From Bolinopsis microptera (lineage: Eukaryota > Ctenophora > Tentaculata > Lobata > Bolinopsidae): a stretch of 60,000 nt of DNA. This document shows, piece by piece, positions 7,826 through 42,810 of the stretch; positions within the stretch are counted from its first letter, which is position 1; each line of letters begins with the position of its first letter. The notes under the pieces were generated by a model. The model made no database searches and was not told the DNA's origin. It worked only from the letters and a program-made list of their open reading frames with translations. Position numbers and translations under genes: made by a program. Location: assembly GCF_026151205.1 (NCBI RefSeq), contig NC_087074.1, forward strand, positions 2,358,001 through 2,418,000, written 5' to 3'.

Positions 7826-7828
7826 CTC

Positions 7829-7981: not shown

Positions 7982-7982
7982 C

Positions 7983-12065: not shown

Positions 12066-12157
12066 TGCAGAACAAGGAAATCATTCTCAAGGCTATCCCT
12101 TCAATATTGTGTACTTAAACGTTTTAAACTTCAGCCCCTTCGCTTTAGCTCAATGTT

Positions 12158-12393
12158 ATGACCACATTTGAGGGACACCTGTTAAAAGATGGTGGTTGGA
12201 GAAAAGGCTGGAGGAAAAGATACTTCAAGTTGACGAAAATTTATTTCCAATATTATGAAAACGAATTCAGCACCTCACCTAAGGGGGCTGCAGTCGAGGA
12301 ACCATTCAAAATGTTGAGCTGGTAGATTTAAAAACATTCACATTTAAAGTAGCATTGAAATCAGAAGCATGGGATCTCCAAGCAGCATCTATG
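12158..12393 (+). CDS. First coding exon of the kinase: PH domain, with a one-base frame break
   Basis: ATG at 12158 opens MTTFEGHLLKDGGWRKGW then RKRYFKL and YYEN, a classic PH beta1-beta3 start. The frame then runs into TGGTAG near 12320. One frame over, GTIQNVELVDLKTFTFKV continues the PH fold to the GTAAAT donor at 12394, and the next exon gives QELIQWMEAI, the C-terminal PH helix. One base is missing around 12297-12302 (CGAGGAACC). The exon length of 236 would be 237 with it, restoring phase 0. It may be an assembly error in a G-run or a real lesion. An ATG at 12153 forms a two-codon upstream ORF. An AG at 12071 (CTGCAG) could be the acceptor of the 5' untranslated part. Confidence 0.75.
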
Positions 12394-15300
12394 GTAAATC
12401 ATATTTCAATTTTCCTATGCTAATTACGAATTTGCCTTGTAAGATGTACCGTGTATCGTAAAATAATTCTTATTTGCTCTACTCTAGGCTAGTCTTTCAG
12501 GTTATTATTTCAAATACTGATATCTCTGACACTATTTATGACAATAATATAATAAGTAGTAAGGTCTAACGTAACAAAGATCTTGAATTAAAGCTGTTCA
12601 GCTTAGATGATTTGTCGCTTGATAACTACCATGTTTTTTACCAATTTAAAATTATATTTTCAGCAAGAGTTGATACAATGGATGGAGGCGATAAAGCCCA
12701 AAAGTGCAGCATCGGTTATTCAGTCTCAGCAAGTGAACACGGCAACACAACAAAACATCAGTGCATCTTTACTTCATGCTCAATCAGTAACAACAATAGT
12801 ACCTGAGAACAGTGAGCATGCATACCAACCATTACCCCATTCCTTCACCCATAACCCCAGACTCTCCATGGTAAGTCGTTACATTGACATTTGTTGAACT
12901 TTTTAAACTCAATCTTCTCATTTTTTAATAGACAGTGAAGTTCGTATAGTTTTTTCCACCTTGTTATAGCCAGCTGCTAGTGAACTACGGGCAAGAAAAT
13001 GACAAAAACCTAGTTAATTGGTCTCCCTAGCAGTTGTCAAGTCGTTATGTTAAAATATTCTTTGTGTGATTTATACAAAGTTTATGAAATGAAGGAACTA
13101 CAGGAAACTTCCCAGGGTTCAGATGGAAGATCATCCCCCTCCTCACCCAGAGTCAGGTAATTAATATTTATTAGATTAGTAATTACCCACATATCTTGGC
13201 TTTGATGATTAAAAGTTAGTCAAGACTCAATTTTCATAGAGTTTAAAATTTGTTCAATTAAACATTTTTGAGATCCTAATTTTAGAGAAGTTCAAACTCT
13301 GATGGCACGAGTACATTCGGAGCCAAACAACTATCATGTCAACCATTGGTAAATCCAGCTCATGAAATTTCTCCCATTTCTGTTAAATTTGAGTGTGGTT
13401 TGTGTCGTAGACAATAGGTTGTTGTGTGTGTTGAAGCAAAAATCACAAATTCGTGACAGGCAAATCAATTGAGCTGAGGTGCCCGATTTTTTATGAATTA
13501 ATTAAAACTAAATAATAATCAAACCCAAAAAATTACTCCCTTTCACTATAGAGATCATGGACGTTTTTGTCGAAAGCATTTATTTTAATCCCTCTATCTA
13601 CAAGTATTATGAATTATCGACATCAATATGATTTATGTTATAATGAAGTACAAATTCTTTTTAAATAACTTTGAATTATATAATATGTAACTTATATATA
13701 CAGTAGTTTAAAATAAAGTTTTGATAATCTGATGAAACCTCAGGACGACGAGCAATTCATCAGCTAGAAGTCAGTCACCTTTACGGAGTTCATCACCTGG
13801 AGGTCGAGTAAACCCTCCCCAAGTTAAACCAGAGACTGTAAGTACTACTAAGCAGGGTGTTGTTAGTGTATCTGAGTGTGACAGTATTCCAACTTGCTGA
13901 TATCTATATTTTACTGTGAATTATCGGGGGTTTGTTGTTAGCACTCTGTCACACAGCATCCTGCACGAACAAGTCTCCATGAAACAGACGCCCCACAAAA
14001 ACATGCAGTGTCCGCGCGACAGAGCCTTCCTGGGACATTCACCCCTTCTCTCCCCCTCTATACCTTATCTCAACGTAGGAAGAGCTGTGACATTCCCCTT
14101 ACAGAGGTTACCACTGCATGGCTTGGATCTTTTATTCTTTATCGATTGTCATTTTCTTTGTGATTGCAGGCATGTAGCTTTATAGGAAATGGCATAATTA
14201 TTTCTGTGTTATTTTTTTCTATTATTCTTTCTTTGTTCACCTTCAAGTGTCAGACAATATTTACTCAATATAATTTATACTTAAATACTGTTAGTCTAGG
14301 GAGTAACTAATGTCTATGCGATCTCCTCGGTCGACTCAGTCGAATGATAGGAAACTTGTTTGAGGGTTAAATGAGGAGGGGTACCTGCTAAAAGATCAAG
14401 AATCTTACTATGGTACCCCTTCAGTAAATCTACATTGTAGTGAACTAGAACTGTAAACATAGTATATATACTATTAACTATTAACTATACATTATTCTAT
14501 GTAACCATTAATTAGAAATTCGATTGTATCTGAAAAGGGGACAAACAAAAGTCTAAACAGTAAAAAAAGTGTAGTGCACCCTCCAAAAACGTAAATCATA
14601 GGTTTTCATCCTATAAATGACACGCAGTTAAAAATATTAAAAATAAATTTAGTAAAAAAATAAAACCATAAATAAGATTTTACCCTCGAAAATTACCGAA
14701 AGATTTCCATTAGTTATAAGTATTAAGGTAGAGTAATAACTTAAATTCTGATCATGATCGATAAATTAATTCCTTCAAGACCTTTCTACTTGTGTTTAAT
14801 TTGATGATTTAGTTTTGAAAATTTTTTCCTCGATTCACAGCGAAAATGGCAATTTTACATTTTTCAAATTTTTGGGCATTTTTTCCATGAAATTGAAAGT
14901 GGGCTCCTGATTCGTGAGAAAGTGGGCTCCTAATTAGCGAGAAAGTGGGCTCCTAATTAGCGAGAAAGTGGGCTCCTAATTAGCGAGAAAGTGGGCTCCT
15001 AATTAGCGAGATGATTTAATGTTTGAACGAGTGTTAATCGTATGAAGATGCCATATCTATTGCATTAGTTTTACAATCATAATCACAATGGTTTTTTAAG
15101 GGTTTTACTTCAGTGTGCTGTCGTTAACAATTATGGGTTCTCGATTATTCTACCTGACTACACTCGATTATGTTCTAATTCTTAAATTTCTCTACATTGC
15201 CTCTTTAGAAAATACTGAATCTGCTGTACTTACTGTACTTGTCTAGCATATCATTGTCCTTTCTCTTGCTGTGGCACTGATATGTACTCTTCTTAAACGC

Positions 15301-18300
15301 ATGCTGAACCTTGTAACCCTCTTTTAAACAGATTGAGTATCAGGATCCCGTAGAAGCATTGCCCGACTCACCACAACAAGACACCTCGCTCAACACTGAC
15401 AGAGTGGGCCAGGACACTCCCCCCAACACTTCTCTACCTCTCGACTTGGACTTTAGTGACGACGAATTCCTGGACTTTGGGGACGACGGTAAGTTCCACT
15501 AGGTTTCCTTGTTTTCTTGCGGGAAGCATAAAGTGTAAGTATTACCCGGACTGATACCATTTACTCGCCGGGGAAGGTTTTATCTAATATTATAATAAAT
15601 GGATTAGTTATGGAATCATTGCTTGCCCTATCGAATAAACTGGTGACCATGCTTTTGTTACAATATTCAAAGCAGCTAGCATTGCACAGTGTACCCAGTG
15701 TGCATTGGATGTTACCAAATTATAGCTAGTCTTAAAAAGTGCACCAAGTCTATCCTGTCTAAATCTAGGGACGTACATGAATGATCCACAAGTCTATCCT
15801 GTCTAAATCTAGGGACGTACATGAATGATCCACAAGACTAACCTGTCTAAATCTAGGGACGTACATGAATGATCCACAAGTCTATCCTGTCTAAATCTAG
15901 GGACGTACATGAATGATCCACAAGACTAACCTGTCTAAATCTAGGGACGTACATGAATGATCCACAAGACTATCCTGTCTAAATCTAGGGACGTACATGA
16001 ATGATCCACAAGTCTATCCTGTCTAAATCTAGGGGCGTACATGAATGATCCACAAGTCTATCCTGTCTAAATCTAGGGACGTACATGAATGATCCACAAG
16101 ACTAACCTGTCTAAATCTAGGGACGTACATGAATGATCCACAAGTCTATCCTGTCTAAATCTAGGGACGTACATGAATGATCCACAAGACTAACCTGTCT
16201 AAATCTAGGGACGTACATGAATGATCCACAAGTCTATCCTGTCTAAATCTAGGGACGTACATGAATGATCCACAAGACTAACCTGTCTAAATCTAGGGAC
16301 GTACATGAATGATCCACAAGACTATCCTGTCTAAATCTAGGGACGTACATGAATGATCCACAAGTCTATCCTGTCTAAATCTAGGGGCGTACATGAATGA
16401 TCCACAAGACTATCCTGTCTAAATCTAGGGACGTACATGAATGATCCACAAGACTATCCTGTCTAAATCTAGGGACGTACATGAATGATCCACAAGTCTA
16501 TCCTGTCTAAATCTAGGGGCGTACATGAATGATCCACAAGTCTATCCTGTCTAAATCTAGGGACGTACATGAATGATCCACAAGTCTATCCTGTCTAAAT
16601 CTAGGGACGTACATGAATGATCCACAAGACTATCCTGTCTAAATCTAGGGACGTACATGAATGATCCACAAGACTATCCTGTCTAAATCTAGGGACGTAC
16701 ATGAATGATCCACAAGTCTATCCTGTCTAAATCTAGGGACGTACATGAATGATCCACAAGTCTATCCTGTCTAAATCTAGGGACGTACATGAATGATCCA
16801 CAAGACTATCCTGTCTAAATCTAGGGACGTACATGAATGATCCACAAGTCTATCCTGTCTAAATCTAGGGACGTACATGAATGATCCACAAGACTATCCT
16901 GTCTAAATCTAGGGACGTACATGAATGATCCACAAGTCTATCCTGTCTAAATCTAGGGACGTACATGAATGATCCACAAGTCTATCCTGTCTAAATCTAG
17001 GGACGTACATGAATGATCCACAAGTCTATCCTGTCTAAATCTAGGGACGTACATGAATGATCCACAAGACTATCCTGTCTAAATCTAGGGACGTACATGA
17101 ATGATCCACAAGACTATCCTGTCTAAATCTAGGGACGTACATGAATGATCCACAAGTCTATCCTGTCTAAATCTAGGGACGTACATGAATGATCCACAAG
17201 TCTATCCTGTCTAAATCTAGGGACGTACATGAATGATCCACAAGTCTATCCTGTCTAAATCTAGGGACGTACATGAATGATCCACAAGACTATCCTGTCT
17301 AAATCTAGGGACGTACATGAATGATCCACAAGTCTATCCTGTCTAAATCTAGGGACGTACATGAATGATCCACAAGTCTATCCTGTCTAAATCTAGGGAC
17401 GTACATGAATGATCCACAAGACTATCCTGTCTAAATCTAGGGACGTACATGAATGATCCACAAGGTCTATCCTGTCTAAATCTAGGGACGTACATGAATG
17501 ATCCACAAGTCTATCCTGTCTAAATCTAGGGACGTACATGAATGATCCACAAGTCTATCCTGTCTAAATCTAGGGACGTACATGAATGATCCACAAGTCT
17601 ATCCTGTCTAAATCTAGGGACGTACATGAATGATCCACAAGTCTATCCTGTCTAAATCTAGGGACGTACATGAATGATCCACAAGTCTATCCTGTCTAAA
17701 TCTAGGGACGTACATGAATGATCCACAAGACTATCCTGTCTAAATCTAGGGACGTACATGAATGATCCACAAGTCTATCCTGTCTAAATCTAGGGACGTA
17801 CATGAATGATCCACAAGTCTATCCTGTCTAAATCTAGGGACGTACATGAATGATCCACAAGACTATCCTGTCTAAATCTAGGGACGTACATGAATGATCC
17901 ACAAGACTATCCTGTCTAAATCTAGGGACGTACATGAATGATCCACAAGTCTATCCTGTCTAAATCTAGGGACGTACATGAATGATCCACAAGACTATCC
18001 TGTCTAAATCTAGGGACGTACATGAATGATCCACAAGTCTATCCTGTCTAAATCTAGGGACGTACATGAATGATCCACAAGACTATCCTGTCTAAATCTA
18101 GGGACGTACATGAATGATCCACAAGTCTATCCTGTCTAAATCTAGGGACGTACATGAATGATCCACAAGTCTATCCTGTCTAAATCTAGGGACGTACATG
18201 AATGATCCACAAGTCTATCCTGTCTAAATCTAGGGACGTACATGAATGATCCACAAGACTATCCTGTCTAAATCTAGGGACGTACATGAATGATCCACAA

Positions 18301-21300
18301 GTCTATCCTGTCTAAATCTAGGGACGTACATGAATGATCCACAAGACTATCCTGTCTAAATCTAGGGACGTACATGAATGATCCACAAGACTATCCTGTC
18401 TAAATCTAGGGACGTACATGAATGATCCACAAGACTATCCTGTCTAAATCTAGGGACGTACATGAATGATCCACAAGTCTATCCTGTCTAAATCTAGGGA
18501 CGTACATGAATGATCCACAAGACTATCCTGTCTAAATCTAGGGACGTACATGAATGATCCACAAGTCTATCCTGTCTAAATCTAGGGACGTACATGAATG
18601 ATCCACAAGTCTATCCTGTCTAAATCTAGGGACGTACATGAATGATCCACAAGTCTATCCTGTCTAAATCTAGGGACGTACATGAATGATCCACAAGTCT
18701 ATCCTGTCTAAATCTAGGGACGTACATGAATGATCCACAAGACTATCCTGTCTAAATCTAGGGACGTACATGAATGATCCACAAGACTATCCTGTCTAAA
18801 TCTAGGGACGTACATGAATGATCCACAAGTCTATCCTGTCTAAATCTAGGGACGTACATGAATGATCCACAAGACTATCCTGTCTAAATCTAGGGACGTA
18901 CATGAATGATCCACAAGTCTATCCTGTCTAAATCTAGGGACGTACATGAATGATCCACAAGTCTATCCTGTCTAAATCTAGGGACGTACATGAATGATCC
19001 ACAAGTCTATCCTGTCTAAATCTAGGGACGTACATGAATGATCCACAAGACTATCCTGTCTAAATCTAGGGACGTACATGAATGATCCACAAGACTATCC
19101 TGTCTAAATCTAGGGACGTACATGAATGATCCACAAGACTATCCTGTCTAAATCTAGGGACGTACATGAATGATCCACAAGACTATCCTGTCTAAATCTA
19201 GGGACGTACATGAATGATCCACAAGACTATCCTGTCTAAATCTAGGGACGTACATGAATGATCCACAAGACTATCCTGTCTAAATCTAGGGACGTACATG
19301 AATGATCCACAAGTCTATCCTGTCTAAATCTAGGGACGTACATGAATGATCCACAAGACTATCCTGTCTAAATCTAGGGACGTACATGAATGATCCACAA
19401 GTCTATCCTATCTAAATCTAGGGACGTACATGAATGATCCACAAGACTATCCTGTCTAAATCTAGGGACGTACATGAATGATCCACAAGACTATCCTGTC
19501 TAAATCTAGGGACGTACATGAATGATCCACAAGACTATCCTGTCTAAATCTAGGGACGTACATGAATGATCCACAAGACTATCCTGTCTAAATCTAGGGA
19601 CGTACATGAATGATCCACAAGTCTATCCTATCTAAATCTAGGGACGTACATGAATGATCCACAAGACTATCCTGTCTAAATCTAGGGACGTACATGAATG
19701 ATCCACAAGTCTATCCTGTCTAAATCTAGGGACGTACATGAATGATCCACAAGACTATCCTGTCTAAATCTAGGGGACGTACATGAATGATCCACAAGTC
19801 TATCCTGTCTAAATCTAGGGACGTACATGAATGATCCACAAGACTATCCTGTCTAAATCTAGGGACGTACATGAATGATCCACAAGACTATCCTGTCTAA
19901 ATCTAGGGACGTACATGAATGATCCACAAGACTATCCTGTCTAAATCTAGGGACGTACATGAATGATCCACAAGTCTATCCTGTCTAAATCTAGGGACGT
20001 ACATGAATGATCCACAAGACACGCTTCACACCCTGAGAAGTGAAATCAGGACTCTCAGACTATCAGACGGAAATACTACAGCGATGGAAAGAGGAGTGGA
20101 TCAGGAGACTCCCCCTAACACTGCGCTACTGGACAGAGTGGGCCAGGAAACTTCCTCTATTGCTACTGCTGTACCTTCTGTCCTCATCATACCAGACACA
20201 CCAGGTGATTAAACGATGGAAATGGCAATGAGACAAAGACACTTAGTGATAAGTAATGACGATGATATCAAAATCAAATCACTGACCTGACAAAGAGACG
20301 ACCTCCACTGACCTGACAAAGAGACGACCTCCACTGACCTGACAAAGAGCCGACCTCCACTGACCTGGCAAAGAAACGACCTCCACTGACCTGACAAAGA
20401 GACGACCTCCACTGACCTGACAAAGAGACGACCTCCACTGACCTGACAAAGAGACGACCTCCACTGATCTGACAAAGAGACAACCTCCACTGACCTGGCA
20501 AAGAGACGACCTCCTCTGACCTGACAAAGAGACAACCTCCACTGACCTGACAAAGAGACGACCTCCACTGACCTGACAAAGAGACGACCTCCACTGACCT
20601 GACAAAGAGACAACCTCCACTGACCTGACAAAGAGATGACCTCCACTGACCTTGCAAAGAGACGACCTCCACTGACCTGGCAAAGAGACGACATCCACTG
20701 ACCTGGCAAAATAGTCATATTTAACCGACCCTCTCTCACAGATGGAACATTCAAAGCAGAGTACATTGCACCCCTTAGTATACCTTCACAGTACAGTGAA
20801 TCACCTGCCAACCCTTCTTTGTACTGTGAGAAACCTGAGTATCGTAACGATAGTAACCAAGGTAACCAAAATGACGATAGTTACCTTGGTAACGACACCA
20901 GTCAAGATGGTGGAGGATTTGATTGCTACTCATCTCCAGCAGTTACTAGACGTTCTATCAAATCTAAAAGTAATGTAATTTATATAACTATTCTCAGTAA
21001 TTATATAAATAACAAATTATAATAATTAGATAATATGGATACAAATATTATTATATAGATGATATATATATATTATATGTATATATATTATATAATATGT
21101 AAATAACAATTAATGATGTTAGAAATTTAGATAGCGCTGAATACCAGTTGTTTTTAGTGAGCCCAGCCCCTAATTGACCACGTGTTTCAGATGTGACTGG
21201 CAATGTGAACTACTGTGTTACCGTTCCTACACCTGACTCAGAAGATGATTCAGAAGACAATCTTCCTAACCTTCACATCAAATCCACAGCTCCTGGTAAG

Positions 21301-23101
21301 ATAAAGCAGTAAGTTGCCACATTATCAAGTTACCAGGTTACCAGCTAGTAACCTAGCTGTGAATTTGATATTGAGGTTAAGTAACCTGAGGTTACTTAAC
21401 CTCAACAGCTCCTGGTAAGATATCGCAGACCGTTTGTCCTTGCAGTTTTGTATATCTGACTGAAGGTTCAATGTATACCTCCGTATCTAGTGTATAGTAT
21501 ATAAAGTATCTAGTGTATAGTACACTCTTCATTCTGGTACACTGTTCACTTGTCTCACCTCATCAATAATTGTAAACAGTATGTGTATGTGTTTGTGATG
21601 AACCAGCAGACCCATTTTCGCCGCCCTAAATACCATTATCTCATCTCACCTCATCAACAATTGTAAACAGTATGTGTATGTGTAGTACTATACTCTGAAC
21701 AAAGTGTATTTCCCAATAAGCGGTTACCATAGTGATAACTACATTTATCTGATCATTTCACGTGCTATTGTAAACACTGTAAGAATCACAGACTTACTAA
21801 GTCATATTATGTAACCTTACAAGTACTACACATATTTTTCAACGTTATCAGTTTTTATATTCGATCTTTAAAAAAACGTACATTTTGTATGTCATTACAC
21901 ATCCAGGGTTGTTGTGAATTAATCTGTCATGTTCAATGTTCATTTCAGACATACTTCACTGATAGAATATTGTTACCGATTAATTTTAGTTTTATATTAG
22001 AATTTCTGTATTCCATTAATGTTTTGTAATATGATAACAGATCGAATTGTATAATCTATTTAACTGCGTGATTAAGTTATGGGACTGTTTGTGTGTACCA
22101 TGTAGTGATTGTAACGCATACCTTATTATTGTTTTCAATGATAACGTCGCAATTTACATTTTAAATTCGATTACTAACAAAGCCTTAAAAACAGTGTGCC
22201 CGCTGTGCAGCCTAAACAGTGTGTGCCTTAAAAACAGTGTGCCCGCTGTGCAGCCTAAACAGTGTGTGCATTATAAACAGTGTGCCCGCTGTGCAGCCTA
22301 AACAGTGTGTGCATTATAAACAGTGTGCGCGCTGTGCAGCCTAAACAGTGTGTGCATTATAAACAGTGTGCCCGCTGTGCAGCCTAAACAGTGTGTGCCT
22401 TATAAACAGTGTGCCCGCTGTACAGCCTAAACAGTGTGTGCATTATAAACAGTGTGCCCGCTGTGCAGCCTAAACAGTGTGTGCCTTATAAACAGTGTGC
22501 CCGCTGTGCAGCCTAAACAGTGTGTGCATTATAAACAGTGTGCCCGCTGTGCAGCCTAAACAGTGTGTGCCTTATAAACAGTGTGCCCGCTGTGCAGCCT
22601 AAACAGTGTGTGCCTTATAAACAGTGTGCCCGCTGTGCAGCCTAAACAGTGTGTGCCTTATAAACAGTGTGCCCGCTGTGCTGCCTAAACTTGAGTTGTG
22701 ATGAAAATGAACACCATCGTGTCCTCTAATTAACAAGTACTTAGTACAGCTATATTTCAACTCAATAGAGGTATCAGAAATATAAAAACTTAATTTGGAC
22801 TTGTAACCTGTCTTCTTTTCAGCCACCACTGATCACACGCTACACAGAGATAACAGCAATTCCTTTCTCTCTACCGAGTCATCTCCAGCCAATCCTATAA
22901 CTACACTTAGAATCCGAGAGTGGGTCAGAAAAATCACGATCGGTTAGTTACTTTTTAGTTAGTTAGATTAGTTAGTTAGATTAGTTAGTTAGATTAGTTA
23001 GGTTGATTACTAGTTAGTTAATAGTTAGTTTAGTTAGTTAGTTAGTTACTAGTCAGTTAGTTACTAGTCAGTTAGTTACTAGTCAGTTAGTTACTAGTTA
23101 C

Positions 23102-23167
<66 letters not shown>

Positions 23168-29100: not shown

Positions 29101-32100
29101 CTAGTTTAGTTACTAGTTTAGTTACTAGTTTAGTTACTAGTTTAGTTTCTAGTTTAGTTACTAGTTTAGTTGCTAGTTTAGTTACTAGTTTAGTTACTAG
29201 TATAGTTACTAGTTAGTCACTAGTTAGTCACTAGTTAGTTACTAGTTTAGTAACTAGTATAGTTACTAGTTAGTCACTAGTTAGTTACTAGTTAGTCACT
29301 AGTTAGTTACTAGTTTAGTTACTAGTTAGTCACTAGTTAGTTACTAGTTAGTTACTAGTTAGTCACTAGTTAGTTACTAGTTAGTCACTAGTTACTAGTT
29401 TAGTTACTAGTTAGTCACTAGTTAGTTACTAGTTTAGTCACTAGTTAGTTACTAGTTTAGTTACTAGTTTAGTTACTAGTTTAGTTACTAGTTTAGTTAC
29501 TAGTTTAGTTACTAGTTAGTCACTAGTTAGTTACTAGTATAGTTACTAGTTAGTTACTAGTTTAGTCACTAGTTAGTTACTAGTTTAGTTACTAGTTTAG
29601 TTACTAGTTTAGTTACTAGTTTAGTTACTAGTTTAGTTGCTAGTTTAGTTACTAGTTAAGTTACTTTTATAGTTACTAGTTAGTCACTAGTTAGTCACTA
29701 GTAAGTAACTAGTTTAGTTACTAGTTAGTTACTTGTTTAGTTACTAGTTTAGTTACTAGTTAGTTACTAGTTAGTCATTTGTTAGTTACTAGTTTAGTTA
29801 CTAGTTAGTCACTAGTTAGTTACTAGTTTAGTCACTAGTTAGTTACTAGTTTAGTTACTAGTTTAGTTACTAGTTTAGTTACTAGTTTAGTTACTAGTTT
29901 AGTTGCTAGTTTAGTTACTAGTTTAGTTGCTAGTATAGTTACTAGTTAGTCACTAGTTAGTCACTAGTTAATAACTAGTTTAGTTACTAGTTAGTTACTA
30001 GTAGTCACTAGTTAGTTACTAGTTTAGTAACTAGTTAGTTACTAGTTAGTTACTAGTTTAGTCACTAGTTAGTTACTAGTTTAGTTACTAGTTTAGTTAC
30101 TAGTTTAGTTACTAGTTTAGTTACTAGTTTAGTTACTAGTTTAGTTACTAGTTAGTCACTTGTTAGTTACTAGTTTAGTCACTAGTTAGTTACTAGTTTA
30201 GTTACTAGTTTAGTTACTAGTTTAGTTACTAGTTTAGTTACTAGTTAGTTACTAGTTAGTCACTAGTTAGTTACTAGTTTAGTTACTAGTTAGTCACTAG
30301 TTAGTTACTAGTTTAGTCACTAGTTAGTTACTAGTTTAGTTACTAGTTTAGTTACTAGTTTAGTTACTAGTTTAGTTACTAGTTTAGTTGCTAGTTTAGT
30401 TACTAGTTTAGTTACTAGTATAGTTACTAGTTAGTCACTAGTTAGTCACTAGTTAGTAACTAGTTTAGTTACTAGTTAGTTACTAGTTAGTCACTAGTTA
30501 GTTACTAGTTTAGTAACTAGTTAATTACTAGTTTAGTTATTAGTTAGTCACTAGTTAGTTACTAGTTTAGTAACTAGTATAGTTACTAGTTTAGTTACTA
30601 GTTTAGTTACTAGTTTAGTTACTAGTTTAGTTACTAGTTAGTTACTAGTTAGTCACTAGTTAGTTACTAGTTTAGTTACTAGTTAGTCACTAGTTAGTTA
30701 CTAGTTTAGTTACTAGTAAGTCACTAGTTAGTTACTAGTTTAGTCACTAGTTAGTTACTAGTTTAGTTACTAGTTTAGTTACTAGTTTAGTTACTAGTTT
30801 AGTTACTAGTTTAGTTACTAGTTTAGTTACTAGTTAGTTACTAGTTAGTCACTAGTTAGTTACTAGTTTAGTTACTAGTTAGTCACTAGTTAGTTACTAG
30901 TTTAGTCACTAGTTAGTTACTAGTTTAGTTACTAGTTTAGTTACTAGTTTAGTTGCTAGTTTAGTTACTAGTTTAGTTACTAGTATAGTTACTAGTTAGT
31001 CACTAGTTAGTCACTAGTTAGTTACTAGTTTAGTAACTAGTTAGTTACTAGTTAGTTACTAGTTTAGTCACTAGTTAGTTACTAGTTTAGTAACTAGTAT
31101 AGTTACTAGTTAGTTACTAGTTTAGTTACTAGTTAGTAACTAGTTTAGTAACTAGTTTAGTTACTAGTTTAGTTACTAGTTTAGTTACTAGTTTAGTTAC
31201 TAGTTTAGTTACTAGTTAGTCACTAGTTAGTTACTAGTTTAGTTACTAGTTAGTCACTAGTTAGTTACTAGTTAGTCACTAGTTAGTTACTAGTTTAGTT
31301 ACTAGTTTAGTTACTAGTTTAGTTACTAGTTTAGTTACTAGTTTAGTTGCTAGTTTAGTTACTAGTTTAGTTACTAGTTTAGTTACTAGTATAGTTACTA
31401 GTTAGTCACTAGTTAGTCACTAGTTAGTTACTAGTTAGTCACTAGTTAGTTACTAGTTTAGTAACTTGTATAGTTACTAGTTAGTTACTAGTTTAGTTAC
31501 TAGTTAGTAACTAGTTTAGTTACTAGTTTAGTTACTAGTTTAGTTACTAGTTTAGTTACTAGTTTAGTTGCTAGTTTAGTTACTAGTTTAGTTACTAGTA
31601 TAGTTACTAGTTAGTCACTAGTTAGTAACTAGTTTAGTTACTAGTTAGTTACTAGTTTAGTTACTAGTTTAGTTACTAGTTAGTTACTAGTTAGTCACTA
31701 GTTAGTTACTAGTTAGTCACTAGTTAGTTACTAGTTTAATTACTAGTTAGTCACTAGTTAGTTACTAGTTTAGTCACTAGTTAGTTACTAGTTTAGTTAC
31801 TAGTTTAGTTACTAGTTTAGTTACTAGTTTAGTTACTAGTTTAGTTGCTAGTTTAGTTACTAGTTTAGTTACTAGTTAGTTACTAGTTAGTCACTAGTTA
31901 GTCACTAGTTAGTTACTAGTTAGTCACTAGTTAGTTACTAGTTTAGTAACTAGTTAGTTACTAGTTAGTTACTAGTTTAGTCACTAGTTAGTTACTAGTT
32001 TAGTAACTAGTATAGTTACTAGTTAGTTACTAGTTTAGTTACTAGTTAGTAACTAGTTTAGTAACTAGTTTAGTTACTAGTTTAGTTACTAGTTTAGTTA

Positions 32101-35100
32101 CTAGTTTAGTTACTAGTTTAGTTACTAGTTAGTTACTAGTTAGTCACTAGTTAGTTACTAGTTTAGTTACTAGTTAGTCACTAGTTAGTTACTAGTTTAG
32201 TCACTAGTTAGTTACTAGTTTAGTTACTAGTTTAGTTACTAGTTTAGTTACTAGTTTAGTTACTAGTTTAGTTACTAGTTTAGTTACTAGTTAGTCACTA
32301 GTTTAGTTACTAGTTAGTTACTAGTTAGTCACTAGTTAGTTACTAGTTTAGTAACTAGTTAGTTACTAGTTAGTTACTAGTTTAGTCACTAGTTAGTTAC
32401 TAGTTTAGTTACTAGTTTAGTTACTAGTTTAGTTACTAGTTTAGTTACTAGTTTAGTTACTAGTTTAGTTACTAGTTAGTCACTAGTTAGTTACTAGTTT
32501 AGTCACTAGTTAGTTACTAGTTTAGTAACTAGTATAGTTACTAGTTAGTTACTAGTTTAGTTACTAGTTAGTAACTAGTTTAGTAACTAGTTTAGTTACT
32601 AGTTTAGTTACTAGTTTAGTTACTAGTTTAGTTACTAGTTTAGTTACTAGTTAGTTACTAGGTTAGTCACTAGTTAGTTACTAGTTTAGTCACTAGTTAG
32701 TTACTAGTTTAGTCACTAGTTAGTTACTAGTTTAGTTACTAGTTTAGTTACTAGTTTAGTTACTAGTTTAGTTATTAGTTTAGTTACTAGTTTAGTTACT
32801 AGTTGGTTACTAGTTAGTCACTAGTTAGTTACTAGTTTAGTTACTAGTTAGTCACTAGTTAGTTACTAGTTTAGTCACTAGTTAGTTACTAGTTTAGTTA
32901 CTAGTTTAGTTACTAGTTAGTTACTAGTTTAGTCACTAGTTAGTTACTAGTTTAGTTACTAGTTTAGTTACTAGTTTAGTTACTAGTTTAGTTACTAGTT
33001 TAGTTACTAGTTTAGTTACTAGTTGGTTACTAGTTAGTCACTAGTTAGTTACTAGTTTAGTTACTAGTTAGTCACTAGTTAGTTACTAGTTTAGTCACTA
33101 GTTAGTTACTAGTTTAGTTACTAGTTTAGTTACTAGTTTAGTTACTAGTTTAGTTACTAGTTAGTTGCTAGTTTAGTTACTAGTTTAGTTCCTAGTATAG
33201 TTACTAGTTAGTCACTAGTTAGTCACTAGTTAGTAACTAGTTTAGTTACTAGTTAGTTACTAGTTTAGTTACTAGTTAGTTACTAGTTTAGTTACTAGTT
33301 AGTTACTAGTTTAGTTACTAGTTTAGTTACTAGTTAGTTACTAGTTAGTCACTTGTTAGTTACTAGTTAGTCACTAGTTAGTTACTAGTTTAGTTACTAG
33401 TTAGTCACTAGTTAGTTACTAGTTTAGTCACTAGTTAGTTACTAGTTTAGTTACTAGTTTAGTTACTAGTTTAGTTACTAGTTTAGTTACTAGTTTAGTT
33501 GCTAGTTTAGTTACTAGTTTAGTTGCTAGTATAGTTACTAGTTAGTCACTAGTTAGTCACTAGTTAGTTACTAGTTAGTCACTAGTTAGTTACTAGTTTA
33601 GTAACTAGTTAGTTACTAGTTAGTTACTAGTTTAGTCACTAGTTAGTTACTAGTTTAGTAACTAGTATAGTTACTAGTTAGTTACTAGTTTAGTTACTAG
33701 TTAGTAACTAGTTTAGTAACTAGTTTAGTTACTAGTTTAGTTACTAGTTTAGTTACTAGTTTAGTTACTAGTTTAGTTACTAGTTAGTTACTAGTTAGTC
33801 ACTAGTTAGTTACTAGTTTAGTTACTAGTTAGTCACTAGTTAGTTACTAGTTTAGTTACTAGTTTAGTTACTAGTTTAGTTACTAGTTTAGTTACTAGTT
33901 TAGTTGCTAGTTTAGTTACTAGTTTAGTTACTAGTTTAGTTACTAGTATAGTTACTAGTTAGTCACTAGTTAGTCACTAGTTAGTTACTATTTAGTCACT
34001 AGTTAGTTACTAGTTTAGTAACTAGTATAGTTACTAGTTAGTTACTAGTTTAGTTACTAGTTAGTAACTAGTTTAGTTACTAGTTTAGTTACTAGTTTAG
34101 TTACTAGTTTAGTTACTAGTTTAGTTGCTAGTTTAGTTACTAGTTTAGTTACTAGTATAGTTACTAGTTAGTCACTAGTTAGTCACTAGTTAGTAACTAG
34201 TTTAGTTACTAGTTAGTTACTAGTTTAGTTACTAGTTTAGTTACTAGTTAGTTACTAGTTAGTCACTAGTTAGTTACTAGTTAGTCACTAGTTAGTTACT
34301 AGTTTAATTACTAGTTAGTCACTAGTTAGTTACTAGTTTAGTCACTAGTTAGTTACTAGTTTAGTTACTAGTTTAGTTACTAGTTTAGTTACTAGTTTAG
34401 TTACTAGTTTAGTTGCTAGTTTAGTTACTAGTTTAGTTACTAGTTAGTTACTAGTTAGTCACTAGTTAGTCACTAGTTAGTTACTAGTTAGTCACTAGTT
34501 AGTTACTAGTTTAGTAACTAGTTAGTTACTAGTTAGTTACTAGTTTAGTCACTAGTTAGTTACTAGTTTAGTAACTAGTATAGTTACTAGTTAGTTACTA
34601 GTTTAGTTACTAGTTAGTAACTAGTTTAGTAACTAGTTTAGTTACTAGTTTAGTTACTAGTTTAGTTACTAGTTTAGTTACTAGTTTAGTTACTAGTTAG
34701 TTACTAGTTAGTCACTAGTTAGTTACTAGTTTAGTTACTAGTTAGTCACTAGTTAGTTACTAGTTTAGTCACTAGTTAGTTACTAGTTTAGTTACTAGTT
34801 TAGTTACTAGTTTAGTTACTAGTTTAGTTACTAGTTTAGTTGCTAGTTTAGTTATTAGTTTAGTTACTAGTATAGTTACTAGTTAGTCACTAGTTTAGTT
34901 ACTAGTTAGTTACTAGTTAGTCACTAGTTAGTTACTAGTTTAGTAACTAGTTAGTTACTAGTTAGTTACTAGTTTAGTCACTAGTTAGTTACTAGTTTAG
35001 TTACTAGTTTAGTTACTAGTTTAGTTACTAGTTTAGTTACTAGTTTAGTTACTAGTTTAGTTACTAGTTAGTCACTAGTTAGTTACTAGTTTAGTCACTA

Positions 35101-38100
35101 GTTAGTTACTAGTTTAGTAACTAGTATAGTTACTAGTTAGTTACTAGTTTAGTTACTAGTTAGTAACTAGTTTAGTAACTAGTTTAGTTACTAGTTTAGT
35201 TACTAGTTTAGTTACTAGTTTGGTTACTAGTTTAGTTACTAGTTTAGTTACTAGTTAGTTACTAGTTAGTCACTAGTTAGTTACTAGTTTAGTTACTAGT
35301 TAGTCACTAGTTAGTTACTAGTTTAGTCACTAGTTAGTTACTAGTTTAGTTACTAGTTTAGTTACTAGTTTAGTTACTAGTTTAGTTACTAGTTTAGTTA
35401 CTAGTTTAGTTACTAGTTGGTTACTAGTTAGTCACTAGTTAGTTACTAGTTTAGTTACTAGTTAGTCACTAGTTAGTTACTAGTTTAGTCACTAGTTAGT
35501 TACTAGTTTAGTTACTAGTTTAGTTACTAGTTTAGTTACTAGTTTAGTTACTAATTTAGTTGCTAGTTTAGTTACTAGTTTAGTTCCTAGTATAGTTACT
35601 AGTTAGTCACTAGTTAGTCACTAGTTAGTAACTAGTTTAGTTACTAGTTAGTTACTAGTTTAGTTACTAGTTAGTTACTAGTTTAGTTACTAGTTTAGTT
35701 ACTAGTTAGTCACTAGTTAGTTACTAGTTTAGTCACTAGTTAGTTACTAGTTTAGTTACTAGTTTAGTTACTAGTTTAGTTACTAGTTTAGTTACTAGTT
35801 TAGTTACTAGTTTAGTTACTAGTTTAGTTGCTAGTTTAGTTACTAGTTTAGTTACTAGTATAGTTACTAGTTAGTCACTAGTTAGTCACTAGTTAGTAAC
35901 TAGTTTAGTTACTAGTTAGTTACTAGTTAGTCACTAGTTTAGTAACTAGTTAGTTACTAGTTAGTTACTAGTTTAGTCACTAGTTAGTTACTAGTTTAGT
36001 TACTAGTTTAGTTACTAGTTTAGTTACTAGTTTAGTTACTAGTTTAGTTACTAATTTAGTTACTAGTTTAGTAACTAGTATAGTTACTAGTTAGTTACTA
36101 GTTTAGTTACTAGTTAGTAACTAGTTTAGTAACTAGTTTAGTTACTAGTTTAGTTACTAGTTTAGTTACTAGTTTAGTTACTAGTTAGTTACTAGTTAGT
36201 CACTAGTTAGTTACTAGTTTAGTTACTAGTTAGTCACTAGTTAGTTACTAGTTTAGTCACTAGTTAGTTACTAGTTTAGTTACTAGTTTAGTTACTAGTT
36301 TAATTACTAGTTTAGTTACTAGTTTAGTTACTAGTTAGTTACTAGTTAGTCACTAGTTAGTTACTAGTTTAGTTACTAGTTAGTCACTAGTTAGTTACTA
36401 GTTTAGTCACTAGTTAGTTACTAGTTTAGTTACTAGTTTAGTTACTAGTATAGTTACTAGTTAGTCACTAGTTAGTCACTAGTTAGTAACTAGTTTAGTT
36501 ACTAGTTAGTTACTAGTTTAGTTACTAGTTTAGTTACTAGTTAGTTACTAGTTAGTCACTAGTTAGTTACTAGTTTAGTTACTAGTTAGTCACTAGTTAG
36601 TTACTAGTTTAGTCACTAGTAAGTTACTAGTTTAGTCACTAGTTAGTTACTAGTTTAGTTACTAGTTTAGTTACTAGTTTAGTTACTAGTTAGTTACTAG
36701 TTAATCACTAGTTAGTTACTAGTTTAGTTACTAGTTTAGTTACTAGTTTAGTTACTAGTTTAGTTGCTAGTTTAGTTACTAGTTTAGTTGCTAGTATAGT
36801 TACTAGTTAGTCACTAGTTAGTCACTAGTTAGTAACTAGTTTAGTTACTAGTTAGTTACTAGTTAGTCACTAGTTAGTTACTAGTTTAGTAACTAGTTAG
36901 TTACTAGTTAGTTACTAGTTTAGTCACTAGTTAGTTACTAGTTTAGTTACTAGTTTAGTTACTAGTTTAGTTACTAGTTTAGTTACTAGTTTAGTTACTA
37001 GTTAGTCACTTGTTAGTTACTAGTTTAGTCACTAGTTAGTTACTAGTTTAGTTACTAGTTTAGTTACTAGTTTAGTTACTAGTTTAGTTACTAGTTAGTT
37101 ACTAGTTAGTCACTAGTTAGTTACTAGTTTAGTTACTAGTTAATCACTAGTTAGTCACTAGTTAGTAACTAGTTTAGTTACTAGTTAGTTACTAGTTAGT
37201 CACTAGTTAGTTACTAGTTTAGTAACTAGTTAGTTACTAGTTAGTTACTAGTAGTTACTAGTTCACTAGTTAGTTACTAGTTTAGTTACTAGTTTAGTTA
37301 CTAGTTTAGTTACTAGTTTAGTTACTAGTTAGTCACTTGTTAGTTACTAGTTTAGTCACTAGTTAGTTACTAGTTTAGTTACTAGTTTAGTTACTAGTTT
37401 AGTTACTAGTTAGTTACTAGTTAGTCACTAGTTAGTTACTAGTTTAGATACTAGTTAGTCACTAGTTAGTTACTAGTTTAGTTACTAGTTTAGTTACTAG
37501 TTTAGTTGCTAGTTTAGTTACTAGTTTAGTTGCTAGTATAGTTACTAGTTAGTCACTAGTTAGTCACTAGTTAGTAACTAGTTTAGTTACTAGTTAGTTA
37601 CTAGTTAGTCACTAGTTAGTTACTAGTTTAGTAACTAGTTAGTTACTAGTTAGTTACTAGTTTAGTCACTAGTTAGTTACTAGTTTAGTTACTAGTTTAG
37701 TTACTAGTTTAGTTACTAGTTTAGTTACTAGTTTAGTTACTAGTTAGTCACTAGTTAGTTACTAGTTTAGTCACTAGTTAGTTACTAGTTTAGTTACTAG
37801 TTTAGTTACTAGTTTAGTTACTAGTTTAGTTACTAGTTAGTTACTAGTTAGTCACTAGTTAGTTACTAGTTTAGTTACTAGTTAATCTAGTTAGTCACTA
37901 GTTAGTAACTAGTTTAGTTACTAGTTAGTTACTAGTTAGTCACTAGTTAGTTACTAGTTTAGTAACTAGTTAGTTACTAGTTAGTTACTAGTTTAGTCAC
38001 TAGTTAGTTACTAGTTTAGTTACTAGTTTAGTTACTAGTTTAGTTACTAGTTTAGTTACTAGTTAGTCACTTGTTAGTTACTAGTTTAGTCACTAGTTAG

Positions 38101-41100
38101 TTACTAGTTTAGTTACTAGTTTAGTTACTAGTTTAGTTACTAGTTAGTTACTAGTTAGTCACTAGTTAGTTACTAGTTTAGATACTAGTTAGTCACTAGT
38201 TAGTTACTAGTTTAGTCACTAGTTAGTTACTAGTTTAGTTACTAGTTTAGTTACTAGTTTAGTTACTAGTTTAGTTACTAGTTTAGTTGCTAGTTTAGTT
38301 ACTAGTTTAGTTACTAGTATGATTTTGTTGGGTGGTGTGTATTTGCGAATAGAGCTCAAACTTCGCATCTGAATTAGTGAACAAGCATATCGGAAAAATC
38401 AAGGCACTGGGGACTGGACCGGGAATTGAAACCGGGACCTCCAGCTATCCGGACTGGTGTTATGACCGCTAAACTACCCAGGCCCTAGATACCCTGAAAT
38501 TTCCAACGGCTTTGTTCACGTAATCATAGCTATTATTATCATTACTCTACTCATTGCATTCCACACATCAGGTATAGACTGTTACATGTTATCAATTTTT
38601 ATACTGGGGGGGGGAGTTGAGTGCAAGTATTATAGAATACTCGTGTATCTGTACACATATGGTACACACTTAAGCACTTCACTCCAAGGGTAGTCTAAAT
38701 ATTTAGACTACCCTTGGAGTGAAGTGCTTAAGTGTGTACCATATGTGTACAGATACACGAGTATTCTATAATACTTGCACTCAACTCCCCCCCCCCAGTA
38801 TAAAAATTAGTTACTAGTATAGTTACTAGTTAGTCACTAGTTAGTCACTAGTTAGTAACTAGTTTAGTTACTAGTATAGTTACTAGTTAGTCACTAGTTA
38901 GTCACTAGTTAGTAACTAGTTTAGTTACTAGTTAGTTACTAGTTAGTCACTAGTTAGTTACTAGTTTAGTAACTAGTTAGTTACTAGTTTAGTTATTAGT
39001 TAGTTACTAGTTTAGTAACTAGTTAGTTACTAGTTTAGTTACTAGTATAGTTACTAGTTTAGTTACTAGTATAGTTACTAGTTTAGTTACTAGTTTAGTA
39101 ACCAGTTTAGTTACTAGTTTAGTTACTAGTTTAGTAACTAGTTAGTTACTAGTTAGTTACTAGTTAGTTACTAGTTAGTTACTAGTTTAGTCACTAGTTA
39201 GTTACTAGTTTAGTTACTAGTTTAGTTACTAGTTTAGTTACTAGTTTAGTTGCTAGTTTAGTTACTAGTTTAGTTACTAGTTTAGTTACTAGTTTAGTTA
39301 CTAGTTTGATTACTAGTTTAGTTACTAGTTTAGTTGCTAGTTTAGTTACTAGTTTAGTTACTAGTTTAGTTACTAGTTTAGTTACTACTTACTAGTTTAG
39401 TTACTAGTTTGATTACTAGTTTAGTTACTAGTTTAGTTACTAGTTAGTTACTAGTTTAGTTACTAGTATAGTTACTAGTTAGTTACTAGTTTAGTTACTA
39501 GTTTAGTTACTAGTTTAGTAACTAGTTTAGTTACTAGTTAGTTAGTTAGTTTAGTTTAGTTTACAAATAACTTATATTCAGGAGGGGGCGACTGATAAAC
39601 ACAGACATGATTTCTATGGGGAGGCCGCACTCCTCGGACAATTCCGACACGCCAATGTTATAGCTCTTCACGGAGTCATTTTAAGAGGTTTTCTCTTTCA
39701 CCTTTTGATTTTCAGTTTTGTATTGCAACTAACCAAACATATCAAGTCAAGATTATAATGAAGCTGACAATATTTAAATATCCAGATACCTCACCGTGGA
39801 TAGTAATAGAGTACGCAGAGAATGGAGCTCTGAAGGGATTTGTGAAGAAACACGGAGAAAACCGCCACAGTAACCAACTCCTCAACTACTGTAGGGATAT
39901 TGTTAGAGGGATGAAGTACCTATCAGAGAGAGGTTACATCCACCGAGTAAGTTATTTTATATCTATCAGAGAGAGGTTACATCCACCGAGTAAGTTATTT
40001 TATATAACTAACTCGATGAACTGTGTAAGATAACCCCGTCATTATTTTATAATATCTCTTATTTTTTACGTCTTGAGTTTCGATATAATGCTGTTTTACC
40101 AATCTTTCCTACTCAATCTCAGGATTTGGCTGCCCGCAACGTACTTCTCACTAGAATGGAAGTTTGTAAGATTGCTGACTTCGGTTTATCTAGAAAGTTG
40201 GGCGATGACGATGAAATTTATGTTTCAAAGGTAATAATTTGCTTTTTCTTGAACATTTGTTAGATACAGTTTAAGAGGGGAATCAAACTGTATATACTAT
40301 ATACTATACTGTACAGGTTAAGATTCCATCAAAGTAACATGCGTTGAGGCGATGTATTCTCAATATTTGTGGCACGCCCCTGCGTTGAGGCGATGTATTC
40401 TCAATACTTGTGGCACGCTCCCATTTCTTGCCCCCATCTATGTATGTGTTTAGTAATTATAACGAGAACAGCAGTTTCTATGAGGGAATATATCGTATTA
40501 AGTTATCCATCTTAAGACGGTTTATGGGTTTTACTGTTTTACTAATATTATCGGACAGCTTGCCCCCATTTGTGGCACGGTTGCATACACATCATTAAAT
40601 GATCACAGTAGCTCCCTAAGCTATGAAGGTAGACCAATAATATTATAACGCAAAGTCAACCATCTTTAAAAATTGGCTAAGGGGGCCGGGGGTCTTCATC
40701 CAAACTCCCCTCTATCAGAAACAATTATAAAGTTATTTTCGAGATAATTTTGATGAAGACCCCCGGCCCCCTTAATTGAGTAATTATTAACGCTGCTGAT
40801 AACTCGATAGTTGATTCCAGTCATAGTTGTTATTATATACAAAGACCGTGCCACAAAAATTGAGAATACAAACTTTGCATGTGTTTGGGTACAAGTATGC
40901 TAGGCTGACAGCGGGCGACTAACCTTTCATTTATGGTCACAACGGCGCGATATGTTGCTTCAACCAGCGCGCTACTTTGCGCGCAACAGAAAGCTGTATT
41001 ATATAACGAACACTACTTCATTGGGACAGCACAACGAACTATAAAAAAAAGACCGTATAGTATATATAGACCGTATAGTATATATAGTAAGTAGGGAGAA

Positions 41101-41689
41101 TGGAGTCGACGGCATTTAATACTGCTACCGTTTTGGCTAAACCATTCTTTCTGCAGTTACATGACATGACCGGATATTATTACAGGGAGGAATGGTGGCG
41201 ATTAAGTGGACTGCTCCGGAGGGAGTGTTGGGAGCAAGCTACTCGAGCGCCAGTGACGTCTGGAGTTGTGCTATCACCATGTGGGAGGTTTTCTCGGACG
41301 GGGCTAATCCGTGGTCCGGGCAATCTAACGAGGACGCCTTTAGGAGAATCCGGAAGGGTGGCAGACTCGCTAAACCGGAGGTACTTTCGCTAACCAAGTA
41401 TATTATTTCAACATTTAGTTTATAAGTGAGGACCAGTGTAACCCCGGCCCTGTTTCACGGTTATTTATGACTGAAACTGTTTCAGAAATGTCCACTAGAC
41501 ATCTACAAGACCATGCTCAAGTGCTGGGAAGCTAACCCGCTGGAGAGACCGACCTTCGCTGAGTTGGACAGACTACTGTACGACCCTAGCACGGACAATG
41601 TCGGACAACCTCTGTATGAGAATACGGAGGGGTTTGTACAGTACGTGAACTTACAGTATGAAAATATGCAGGATGTTCAAGGAACATGA
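12158..41689 (+). CDS. Cytoplasmic tyrosine kinase with N-terminal PH domain and docking-type linker
   Basis: Exons 12158-12393, 12664-12870, 13104-13156, 13744-13837, 15332-15488, 20019-20204, 20742-20969, 21191-21295, 22823-22942, 23971-24090, 24561-24640, 39582-39687, 39786-39946, 40123-40230, 41186-41380 and 41486-41689 all join in phase, giving about 786 residues. PH domain ~1-100. Ser/Pro/Asn-rich linker ~105-485 with YQDP (Y200), YIAP (Y319), YRN (Y345) and YSSP (Y374). Kinase domain ~490-755: GNGAFGEV glycine loop, VAVK (K526), alpha-C Glu543, HRDLAARN (D619), DFG (637-639), activation-loop Y651, IKWTAPE. The HRDLAARN form marks a tyrosine kinase, and all catalytic residues are present. 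The tail has YENT, YVNL and YENM. No signal peptide, transmembrane segment, SH2 or SH3 was seen, so it should be a lipid-recruited cytoplasmic kinase. Exon 3 could instead start at 13095. No known family (Tec, Akt) has this layout; the kinase core recalls Eph/Src-type enzymes. Confidence 0.85.
13957..14106 (+). CDS. Candidate optional exon of the kinase linker
   Basis: A good acceptor (CACTCTGTCACACAG, ending 13956) leads into exactly 50 open codons (HPARTSLHETDAPQ... to DIPLTE) and a weak donor GAG|GTTACC. It enters and leaves in phase 0, as do the flanking exons 13744-13837 and 15332-15488, so it could be included or skipped without changing frame. Base composition is coding-like (GC-rich, C-rich third positions) against an AT-rich intron. 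Inclusion would add 50 Ser/Pro/Thr-rich residues. Confidence 0.5.
14896..15010. repeat. 23-bp minisatellite, five units
   Basis: AAAGTGGGCTCCTAATTAGC plus GAG repeated five times (115 bp), the first unit slightly diverged. Intronic. Confidence 0.95.
15749..20018. repeat. 44-bp satellite array, about 97 copies, in kinase intron 5
   Basis: The monomer runs CTATCCTGTCTAAATCTAGG, GACGTACATGAATG, ATCCACAAG and repeats with very little change. Two main types alternate irregularly, with TC or AC before TATCC. Early units also have CTAACC, and some have GGGGCGT for GGGACGT. Rare extra bases occur near 17464 and 19772. It fills almost all of the 4.5 kb intron, and its last unit ends exactly at the acceptor AG of exon 6 (20018). 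It cannot be coding: 44 is not a multiple of three and each unit has stops. Confidence 0.98.
20281..20710. repeat. 26-bp minisatellite in kinase intron 6
   Basis: About 16 units of ACTGACCTGACAAAGAGACG plus ACCTCC. The reverse complement lacks stops in all three frames, so it produces long spurious minus-strand frames. It lies 31 bases before the acceptor of exon 7. Confidence 0.95.
21371..21405. repeat. Short near-perfect palindrome
   Basis: TTGAGGTTAAGTAACC and its exact complement around a 3-base loop (TGA). It sits immediately before a second copy of the exon-8 donor sequence. Confidence 0.9.
22188..22690. repeat. 43-bp minisatellite in kinase intron 8
   Basis: About 11.5 units containing AAACAGTGTGCCCGCTGTGC, AGCCTAAACAGTGTGTGC and ATTAT or CTTAT. 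Each unit holds two AAACAGTGTG half-repeats. Confidence 0.95.
22943..23168. repeat. GTTA-type short tandem repeat
   Basis: Begins directly at the donor of exon 9 (G|GTTAGT). It is made of GTTA, GATTA and ACTAGTTA variants, a low-order relative of the large TTAGTTACTAGT array. Confidence 0.9.
23169..23385. repeat. (TTTG)n microsatellite, about 54 units
   Basis: Uninterrupted tetranucleotide run of about 217 bp. The Phe-Val-Cys-Leu frames it produces are artefacts of the repeat. Confidence 0.98.
24282..24558. repeat. 8-bp minisatellite (TTACACTG)n ending in a splice acceptor
   Basis: About 34 units with rare changes (TAACACTG, TTACATTG). The last unit, changed to TTACAG, is the acceptor of exon 11, which encodes the glycine loop and the catalytic lysine. 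Confidence 0.95.
38403..38485 (-). mobile_element. tRNA-derived SINE-like unit inside the satellite
   Basis: Minus strand: A box TAGTTTAGCGG, a fully paired five-base anticodon stem (CCAGT/GCTGG) around CCGGATA, and B box GGTTTCAATTC (38423-38433). As in the unit at 7983, about six extra bases separate the T stem from the acceptor-like strand (CTGGG/CCCAG), so it is tRNA-like but not a standard tRNA. It is part of the 488-bp insertion into the array. Confidence 0.65.
38594..38808. mobile_element. ~215-bp fold-back palindrome inserted in the satellite
   Basis: Arms 38594-38700 and 38701-38808 mirror each other without a spacer (centre TCTAAATATTTAGA). The only difference seen is the length of a homopolymer, G9 on the left and C10 on the right. 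No ORF. Such near-perfect arms imply recent origin or gene conversion. Confidence 0.95.
39921..40006. repeat. 43-bp tandem duplication across a 5' splice site
   Basis: TATCAGAGAGAGGTTACATC...CACCGAGTAAGTTATTTTATATC is present twice (from 39921 and from 39964), so the exon-13 end and its GTAAGT donor exist in two copies. Only the first donor (39947) keeps the HRD motif in frame. Confidence 0.95.
40341..40430. repeat. Short direct repeat, part of a possible inverted-repeat element
   Basis: GCGTTGAGGCGATGTATTCT... GTGGCACGC occurs twice in tandem. Its complement (CGTGCCACAAAAATTGAG) recurs at about 40847-40865, suggesting a small intronic MITE around 40340-40880. Confidence 0.6.
40678..40774. 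mobile_element. 97-bp hairpin element in kinase intron 14
   Basis: 23-bp perfect arms (TAAGGGGGCCGGGGGTCTTC... and its complement) flank a ~51-bp loop. Probably a small MITE. The arms are GC-rich in an AT-rich intron. Confidence 0.8.
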
Positions 41690-41924: not shown

Positions 41925-41930
41925 AATAAA
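41925..41930 (+). promoter_or_regulatory. Candidate poly(A) signal of the kinase gene
   Basis: AATAAA about 235 bases after the TGA at 41687-41689, followed by TTTGATTGTT. Confidence 0.5.
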
Positions 41931-42810
41931 TTTGATTGTTAATAAATAATAGGCGAAACTTTCAATTTGTAAACATAAAAGTGAAAAATGAACATTCAAA
42001 TAGTAAACTTAGCCAACTGAAAAATTGAAACTTTGGCCCAGAAGATTCCGATTGGATAGTTAAAAGGAGTAATATAGGACAATATCAATATGTCCATATT
42101 CAGTGGTCGGAGTTCAACAATCAACAAGGCCCTGTGATAGATAATGAGAGTAGCTTGGTCCGGGGCATCAGGATTTTATCTTACTCTTCAGTTCATGCTT
42201 CTGAAATAATATGATGGTTGAATGGTATAGCGGAGTAACAAGTAAGCAACCAGCTGAATTAAGTTGACTTCGTTCAGCTTCAAACTAACTGGCCTATGCG
42301 CGCTTATAATGCTGACAATAGCTTGGCGCGTATAACAGCTTACAAATTTGTGAAGACCGTTTGAAGCAATATTCGCTTAATCAAAATTTATACTGTGCAT
42401 CACTAATTTGACTTCGAACTAATCATTGAAATCGCAGCGATCAGGTCGCATAGAACACTTCACCTTTATAACTAGAAAAGGACTTGAATGTGGTGGAGGT
42501 TCACGAAAAATTTGATTCAAATATGAAATAATAGGAGTGAGTTTGTGCAAACTTGAATTATCAAAATGTTGTTATAAGGTGAATAGAAAGTTGGGCCCGT
42601 AATGTTAATGAAAACCACCAATACTACATCTTAAGTTGTAGAACCACAAAAACTCACCTCTTTACTGTGTATAATAGTGCTAATTTCACCATGATTATAA
42701 TAGTGCCGTTGGCAAATTTCTGCAAATGCATCGGAGTGATGCATTTCCTAACCCTGTCAGCGAATAAACTATCCCTCGCGGGACCGTTCAAGTAAGTCAG
42801 TTTGATACAG
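41931..42810. other. Intergenic DNA between convergent genes
   Basis: No repeat or coding feature recognised. It separates the kinase 3' end from the 3' end of the SR gene. Confidence 0.5.

Follow-up and report, generated by a model that had tools for sequence, protein, structure and literature searches.

The prevailing view is that animal tyrosine kinases adopted a small number of domain layouts early on. Eph receptors carry juxtamembrane tyrosines before their kinase domain, and the PTB domain, found on some other kinases, has a PH-like fold. The layouts SH3-SH2-kinase and PH-SH3-SH2-kinase are the most anciently conserved among tyrosine kinases according to the accessible part of PMC8662651, where a PH domain is mentioned only for Tec, and the term PH domain is unused in two papers on Eph evolution (PMC6993872, PMC6485061). 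PH domains are common on eukaryotic protein kinases generally (PMC3019232, accessible part). Docking proteins of the Gab/DOS type are recognised by an N-terminal PH domain, proline-rich SH3 sites and several tyrosine motifs (PMC2747914, accessible part). In the choanoflagellate Monosiga, the N-terminal PTB domain of HMTK1 steers a receptor-like kinase, which was compared with FGFR1, to its substrates (PMC3082566, accessible part), and HMTK1 is the nearest tested precedent for the mechanism proposed below.

Here, we present a locus from a 60,000-nucleotide stretch of the Bolinopsis microptera genome (264.65 Mb, 232 contigs), which we call the window and which covers bases 2,358,001-2,418,000 on contig C3. 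The predicted protein resembles Eph receptors in the best matches of its kinase, its position in trees, the absence of a long insertion between helices D and E and one exact intron position shared with an Eph-type gene of the same genome, but it differs from them in having an N-terminal PH domain, in that no ephrin-binding domain, FN3, SAM or hydrophobic membrane segment was detected, and in a pre-kinase FVDP segment free of tyrosine. With the Tec family it shares the placement of a PH domain before a tyrosine kinase, but SH3 and SH2 are missing and the kinase is closer to Eph. The likeness to Gab/DOS proteins lies in the N-terminal PH domain, the long disordered middle and the YxN motifs; unlike them, the protein has its own kinase, carries its motifs in a short post-kinase tail and finds no Gab protein among its solved PH matches. 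Monosiga HMTK kinases also place an adaptor domain N-terminal to a receptor-like tyrosine kinase, but theirs is PTB rather than PH and their catalytic loop has HM rather than HR (PMC3082566, accessible part). Among the literature matches listed, with their incomplete coverage of kinome surveys, there is no named family with the order PH-linker-kinase, as originally predicted, and no animal PH-tyrosine kinase without SH2 or SH3, which does not in itself establish absence from print. By our reading, what is new is the domain combination, the kind of enzyme being already known.

The 17-exon gene model, a prediction from genomic sequence, was assembled by eye and then checked computationally (Table 1). 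All 16 introns are bounded by GT-AG, and E2-E17 form a single open frame of 762 codons (762 aa) with one terminal stop; an in-frame TAG was read immediately 5' of the ATG at 12158. The domain order and the E2-E17 frame are evident from these data, and we take the locus to be one gene with a real outline and, as assembled, a frame-broken first exon. The original prediction of sixteen phase-matched exons holds for the splice sites and for the frame of E2-E17, but the exons number 17 and phase fails inside exon 1. Its linker of ~380 residues compares with 457 aa after the PH domain when E7 is included and 395 aa when it is left out, so E7 was probably omitted from the earlier exon count. The acceptor of E7 is formed by the last unit of the 44-bp tandem array, with an alternative start at 20067 seen by eye. 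E6 and E7 have an 11-residue stretch in common (VGQDTPPNTSL and VDQETPPNTAL; score reached by 5 of 2000 shuffles), which suggests a local duplication.

Table 1. Exons of the predicted PH-kinase gene and associated features, in window positions.
Feature	Positions	Strand	Remarks
E1	12158..12393	+	ATG and most of PH domain; frame break ~12283-12311 between PH halves
E2	12664..12870	+	last PH helix, then linker start
E3	13104..13156	+	linker; phase support only (3/3 + frames stop-free, two score equally high)
E4	13744..13837	+	linker; sole stop-free + frame; codon signal weak alone
E5	13942..14106	+	linker; claimed frame stop-free, other stop-free + frame scores higher; rests on phase
E6	15332..15488	+	linker; phase and codon usage
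44-bp x97 array	15745-20018		ends one base before E7; unit carries splice dinucleotide
E7	20019..20204	+	linker; 62 whole codons, phase-symmetric, skippable without frame loss
E8	20742..20969	+	linker; carries 6/10 linker tyrosines
E9	21191..21295	+	linker; phase and codon usage
E10	22823..22942	+	linker; phase and codon usage
GTTA array	22943-23387		begins at first intron base after E10; unit carries splice dinucleotide
E11	23971..24090	+	pre-kinase segment (FVDP..), glycine loop start
8-bp array	24281-24559		one base left between array and E12
E12	24561..24640	+	glycine loop through VAVK
Intron	24641..39581	+	14,941 bp, nearly all TTAGTTACTAGT-type tandem array (24655-39556); interrupts kinase N-lobe
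12-bp array	24655-39556		begins 14 bases after E12
E13	39582..39687	+	alpha-C helix region
E14	39786..39946	+	hinge through HR of HRD
E15	40123..40230	+	DLAARN, DFG, activation loop; preceding intron between HR and D, phase 0
E16	41186..41380	+	APE and C-lobe
E17	41486..41689	+	kinase end, tail, stop codon
Tail motifs YENT, YVNL, YENM	41615..41668	+	C-terminal
Two AATAAA signals	41925 and 41941 (41925..41946)	+	3' of stop

Codon usage was scored with a coding model of 3397 codons from five loci. In their claimed frames the linker exons E2-E10 reached 101.7 bits. Length-matched noncoding stretches free of stops, drawn 2000 times, gave a null of -53 +/- 29, and no draw (0/2000) attained the E2-E10 score. 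This first null drew on stretches that had also trained the noncoding model and was thus biased toward the coding claim; with the noncoding set split into training and test parts, E2-E10 was again matched by 0/2000 draws, and the weakest part, E2-E5, by 2/2000, in both directions in each case. When these exons are scored singly, the claimed frame of E2-E5 does not outscore the alternatives. Taken as a whole, the linker reads as coding sequence. It is quite improbable that PH and kinase exons belong to two adjoining genes and that the fused protein is an artefact, even with introns as long as 14.9 kb, a frame-broken exon 1 and the indifferent single scores of E2-E5 in favour of such a division: E2 carries the last PH helix, the eight phase-matched, stop-free linker exons E3-E10 run in frame into the kinase exons, and the codon score of the linker lies far above its null, that of E2-E5 alone being matched by only 2/2000 draws.

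In exon 1, the frame of the ATG encodes the first PH half and then meets a stop at 12323-12325, while the second half, recognisable from about 12298, lies in another frame beside a run of G. As a consequence of this break, the assembled gene encodes no intact PH-kinase. When the frame pieces are joined over an X, they match the PH family PF00169 (E=2.7e-10, 41.1 bits vs a Pfam cut-off of 25.1), and in this joined form the predicted PH domain was recovered; alone, the first half lies above the cut-off (E=7e-6, 27.0 bits) and the second below it (E=0.0058, 17.6 bits). Six candidate micro-introns of 14-56 bp (12245-12345; one GT donor, five GC) would restore the frame, and all were rejected as not believable in length or splice context. 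Among the 5 candidates scored in the genome, none is a further copy of the PH exon, the next PH match being 40% over 45 residues (E=0.001).

A frame break without a plausible intron, in a genome where no second PH exon copy was found, is also what would be expected of a decaying gene that has lost its PH domain and whose product is a linker-kinase starting downstream, or of a pseudogene. We consider such decay unlikely, given 762 codons without a further stop or frame break and the retention of the kinase motifs. In addition, indels next to homopolymers occur in long-read assemblies of the wtdbg/pilon type, to which the B. microptera assembly belongs. This assembly was built from long reads with wtdbg and polished with pilon (PMC10232365, accessible part). 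Under the reading of a working PH-kinase, we infer an unbroken exon 1 in the living animal.

The 34 solved structures matching the PH domain at E<=1 include TAPP1, pleckstrin, GRP1/cytohesin and DAPP1, as well as four rows of complement factor H that match by chance; Gab, Dok, IRS and Btk are absent from these 34. The PH domains of GRP1 and DAPP1 bind 3-phosphoinositides, and the PH sequence fits, by eye, the K..R.R..Y pattern that we take to be typical of PIP3-binding PH domains; lipid binding is a prediction.

The kinase domain is complete, as the original prediction had it, with a PF07714 match at E=1.2e-84 and the motifs HRDLAARN, DFGLSR and WTAPE complete in translation. Its best single-kinase matches among solved structures are Eph receptors at ~250 bits, followed by a Src-Abl ancestor (199) and Lck (193); one EGFR chain heads the list only through the sum of its two kinase copies, at 172 each. 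The Eph-type kinase of the same genome shows a similar margin in the structure search (Eph 231 vs 173 bits), and a control kinase from this genome matches Abl (224) and FGFR3 (212), with Eph absent from the best 60 of 2669 rows. Identity is 43.5% to EPHA3, 41.2% to EPHB2 and at most 38.9% to the other 11 references; a kinase on contig C1 of the same genome is 33.5% identical. With 123 of 191 candidates scored, the genome yielded no close kinase paralogue: the kinase ranked next by E-value shares 37% identity across most of the domain, and candidates reach at most 59% over single short exons. Kinase matches in the genome lie nearly all on contigs C1-C13, with C68, C102 and C107 as exceptions.

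In a tree of 15 rows the window kinase groups with the two Eph references (89/95), with an unsettled bootstrap and the window row flagged as a long branch, and in a tree of 20 rows it shares one side of a branch with the genome's own Eph-type kinase, EPHA3 and EPHB2 (93/92). The Eph branch is unstarred in both trees, which are built with eleven reference sequences entered by hand rather than retrieved from a database and allow a place inside or beside the Eph receptors alike. The kinase-domain phylogeny suggested along with the original prediction thus groups the kinase with Eph, but the AU test on the 20-row tree rejects neither a pairing with BTK (p=0.284) nor one with FES (p=0.182). The window gene and the genome's own Eph-type gene have a phase-0 intron at the identical position, between HR and DLAARN. 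A survey of 49 loci, a sample of the kinome, yielded 13 other tyrosine-kinase-type motifs, of which only the Eph-type gene matches; at L049 the intron is one base off and in another phase, and in 11 loci the site is uninterrupted (L001, L004, L019, L023, L026, L035, L037, L040, L042, L043, L048). The exons of this Eph-type kinase lie ~53-58 kb further down from a partial ephrin-binding-domain match (C4:4449076-4449348) on the same strand, and we treat the two, as an assumption, as one Eph gene. Searched by itself, the N-lobe together with the preceding FVDP segment matches MAP4K1 and not Eph, and a juxtamembrane likeness to Eph, considered as independent evidence, was therefore downgraded to suggestive. 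Between helices D and E the kinase alignment shows no long insertion, as is characteristic of Eph and of cytoplasmic kinases (PMC8662651, accessible part).

Together, these comparisons point to an Eph-type kinase domain, Eph rather than Tec, an affinity that had gone unseen in the original prediction, as had the frame break in exon 1. The N-terminal PH and C-terminal kinase do stand in a Tec-like order, and the BTK pairing is not rejected by the AU test, but that the protein is a divergent Tec-family kinase with SH3 and SH2 lost is very improbable with an identity of only 33.6% to BTK, Eph ahead by ~50 bits, no Tec kinase among the best 60 of 2576 solved-structure rows and no Btk among the PH matches. 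A domain search of the joined protein at E<=0.1 reported neither SH2 nor SH3, in agreement with the earlier claim, and no other Tec domain.

The receptor half of an Eph protein was likewise not encountered. Neither an ephrin-binding domain nor FN3 appears in the joined protein, and the + frames of the intervals scanned on either side of the 44-bp array, 3100-15741 and 20019-24700, show none either; upstream, the frame scan matched a reverse transcriptase, a sub-threshold TMIE and the first PH half only. Since this unspliced scan also missed the kinase pieces in E11-E12, an ectodomain made of short exons could escape it. SAM was found neither in the joined protein nor in the sequence after the stop, and no hydrophobic membrane segment precedes the kinase, the highest 19-residue hydropathy being 1.0.

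The linker falls barely on the disordered side of the charge-hydropathy boundary (0.414 vs 0.431) and contains 10 tyrosines in 457 residues (2.2%). The spaced tyrosine motifs ascribed to it are weak: YxN occurs once vs 0.52 expected and Y..P three times vs 0.94 (P=0.057), and among the six patterns tried only P..Y/Y..P departs from chance (5 vs 1.9 expected, P=0.03). The clear cluster is instead in the C-terminal tail, where 37 residues hold three YxN motifs vs 0.42 expected (shuffle P=0.0017, uncorrected, one of twelve tests). The comparison with docking proteins (Gab, Dok, IRS) accordingly survives as a layout, but not in the PH matches or in any YxN enrichment of the linker. YxN is a Grb2-type SH2 site, and YENM is also a p85-type site.

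Based on these features, we propose, with confidence about evenly balanced, a cytoplasmic Eph-lineage tyrosine kinase in which the receptor half is absent and an N-terminal PH domain is present, and which would be recruited by lipid, phosphorylate its own tail and dock SH2 proteins. The PH domain would bring the protein to phosphoinositide-rich membrane (probably to PI3K products), and the long disordered linker would free the kinase to reach both nearby molecules and the C-terminal tail of its own. The kinase would then be turned on by phosphorylation of its activation-loop tyrosine in trans, and the phosphorylated tail may recruit Grb2-type SH2 adaptors through YxN and p85-type adaptors through YENM; the lipid binding, activation and docking in this scheme are predictions. 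A more far-reaching reading, which we put forward tentatively, is that an Eph-lineage kinase left the cell surface in an animal lineage among the earliest to branch and became its own docking protein, the PH domain having replaced the receptor half and the YxN docking tail having replaced SAM. If true, a receptor-type kinase was converted in a ctenophore into a cytoplasmic kinase that is recruited by lipid and carries its own docking sites, and the shuffling of tyrosine-kinase domains continued within animals.

Tandem arrays adjoin splice sites in the gene (Table 1), and the seven largest arrays make up ~21.0 of its 29.5 kb. The end of E14 and its donor lie in a 43-bp tandem duplicate of two identical copies (39920-40005), which provides an identical second donor 43 bp downstream; splicing there would disrupt the frame. 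The 15-kb satellite intron contains a tRNA-like match on the minus strand (38411-38483; Rfam RF00005, 40.8 bits, uncalled by ARAGORN) near an inverted repeat seen by eye at ~38600-38810, and this match is probably a tRNA-derived mobile element.

Upstream of the gene, the window contains a Kelch-repeat match at 950-1201 (+), a neighbour with likely further exons to about 3050 by eye, broken reverse-transcriptase pieces (RVT_1) in two frames at 5990-6555 (+), and a 351-aa open frame at 8081-9136 (+) to which the frame scans assigned no Pfam family. The downstream neighbour, at 45200-48070 (-), consists of RRM and CCHC zinc-knuckle pieces of an SR-type splicing factor, with an RS-rich stretch seen by eye at ~42880-43420, and a 478-aa open frame lies at 45800-47236 (+). 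Near the end of the window, a 24-bp x24.7 array (59349-59940) is open in several frames on both strands.
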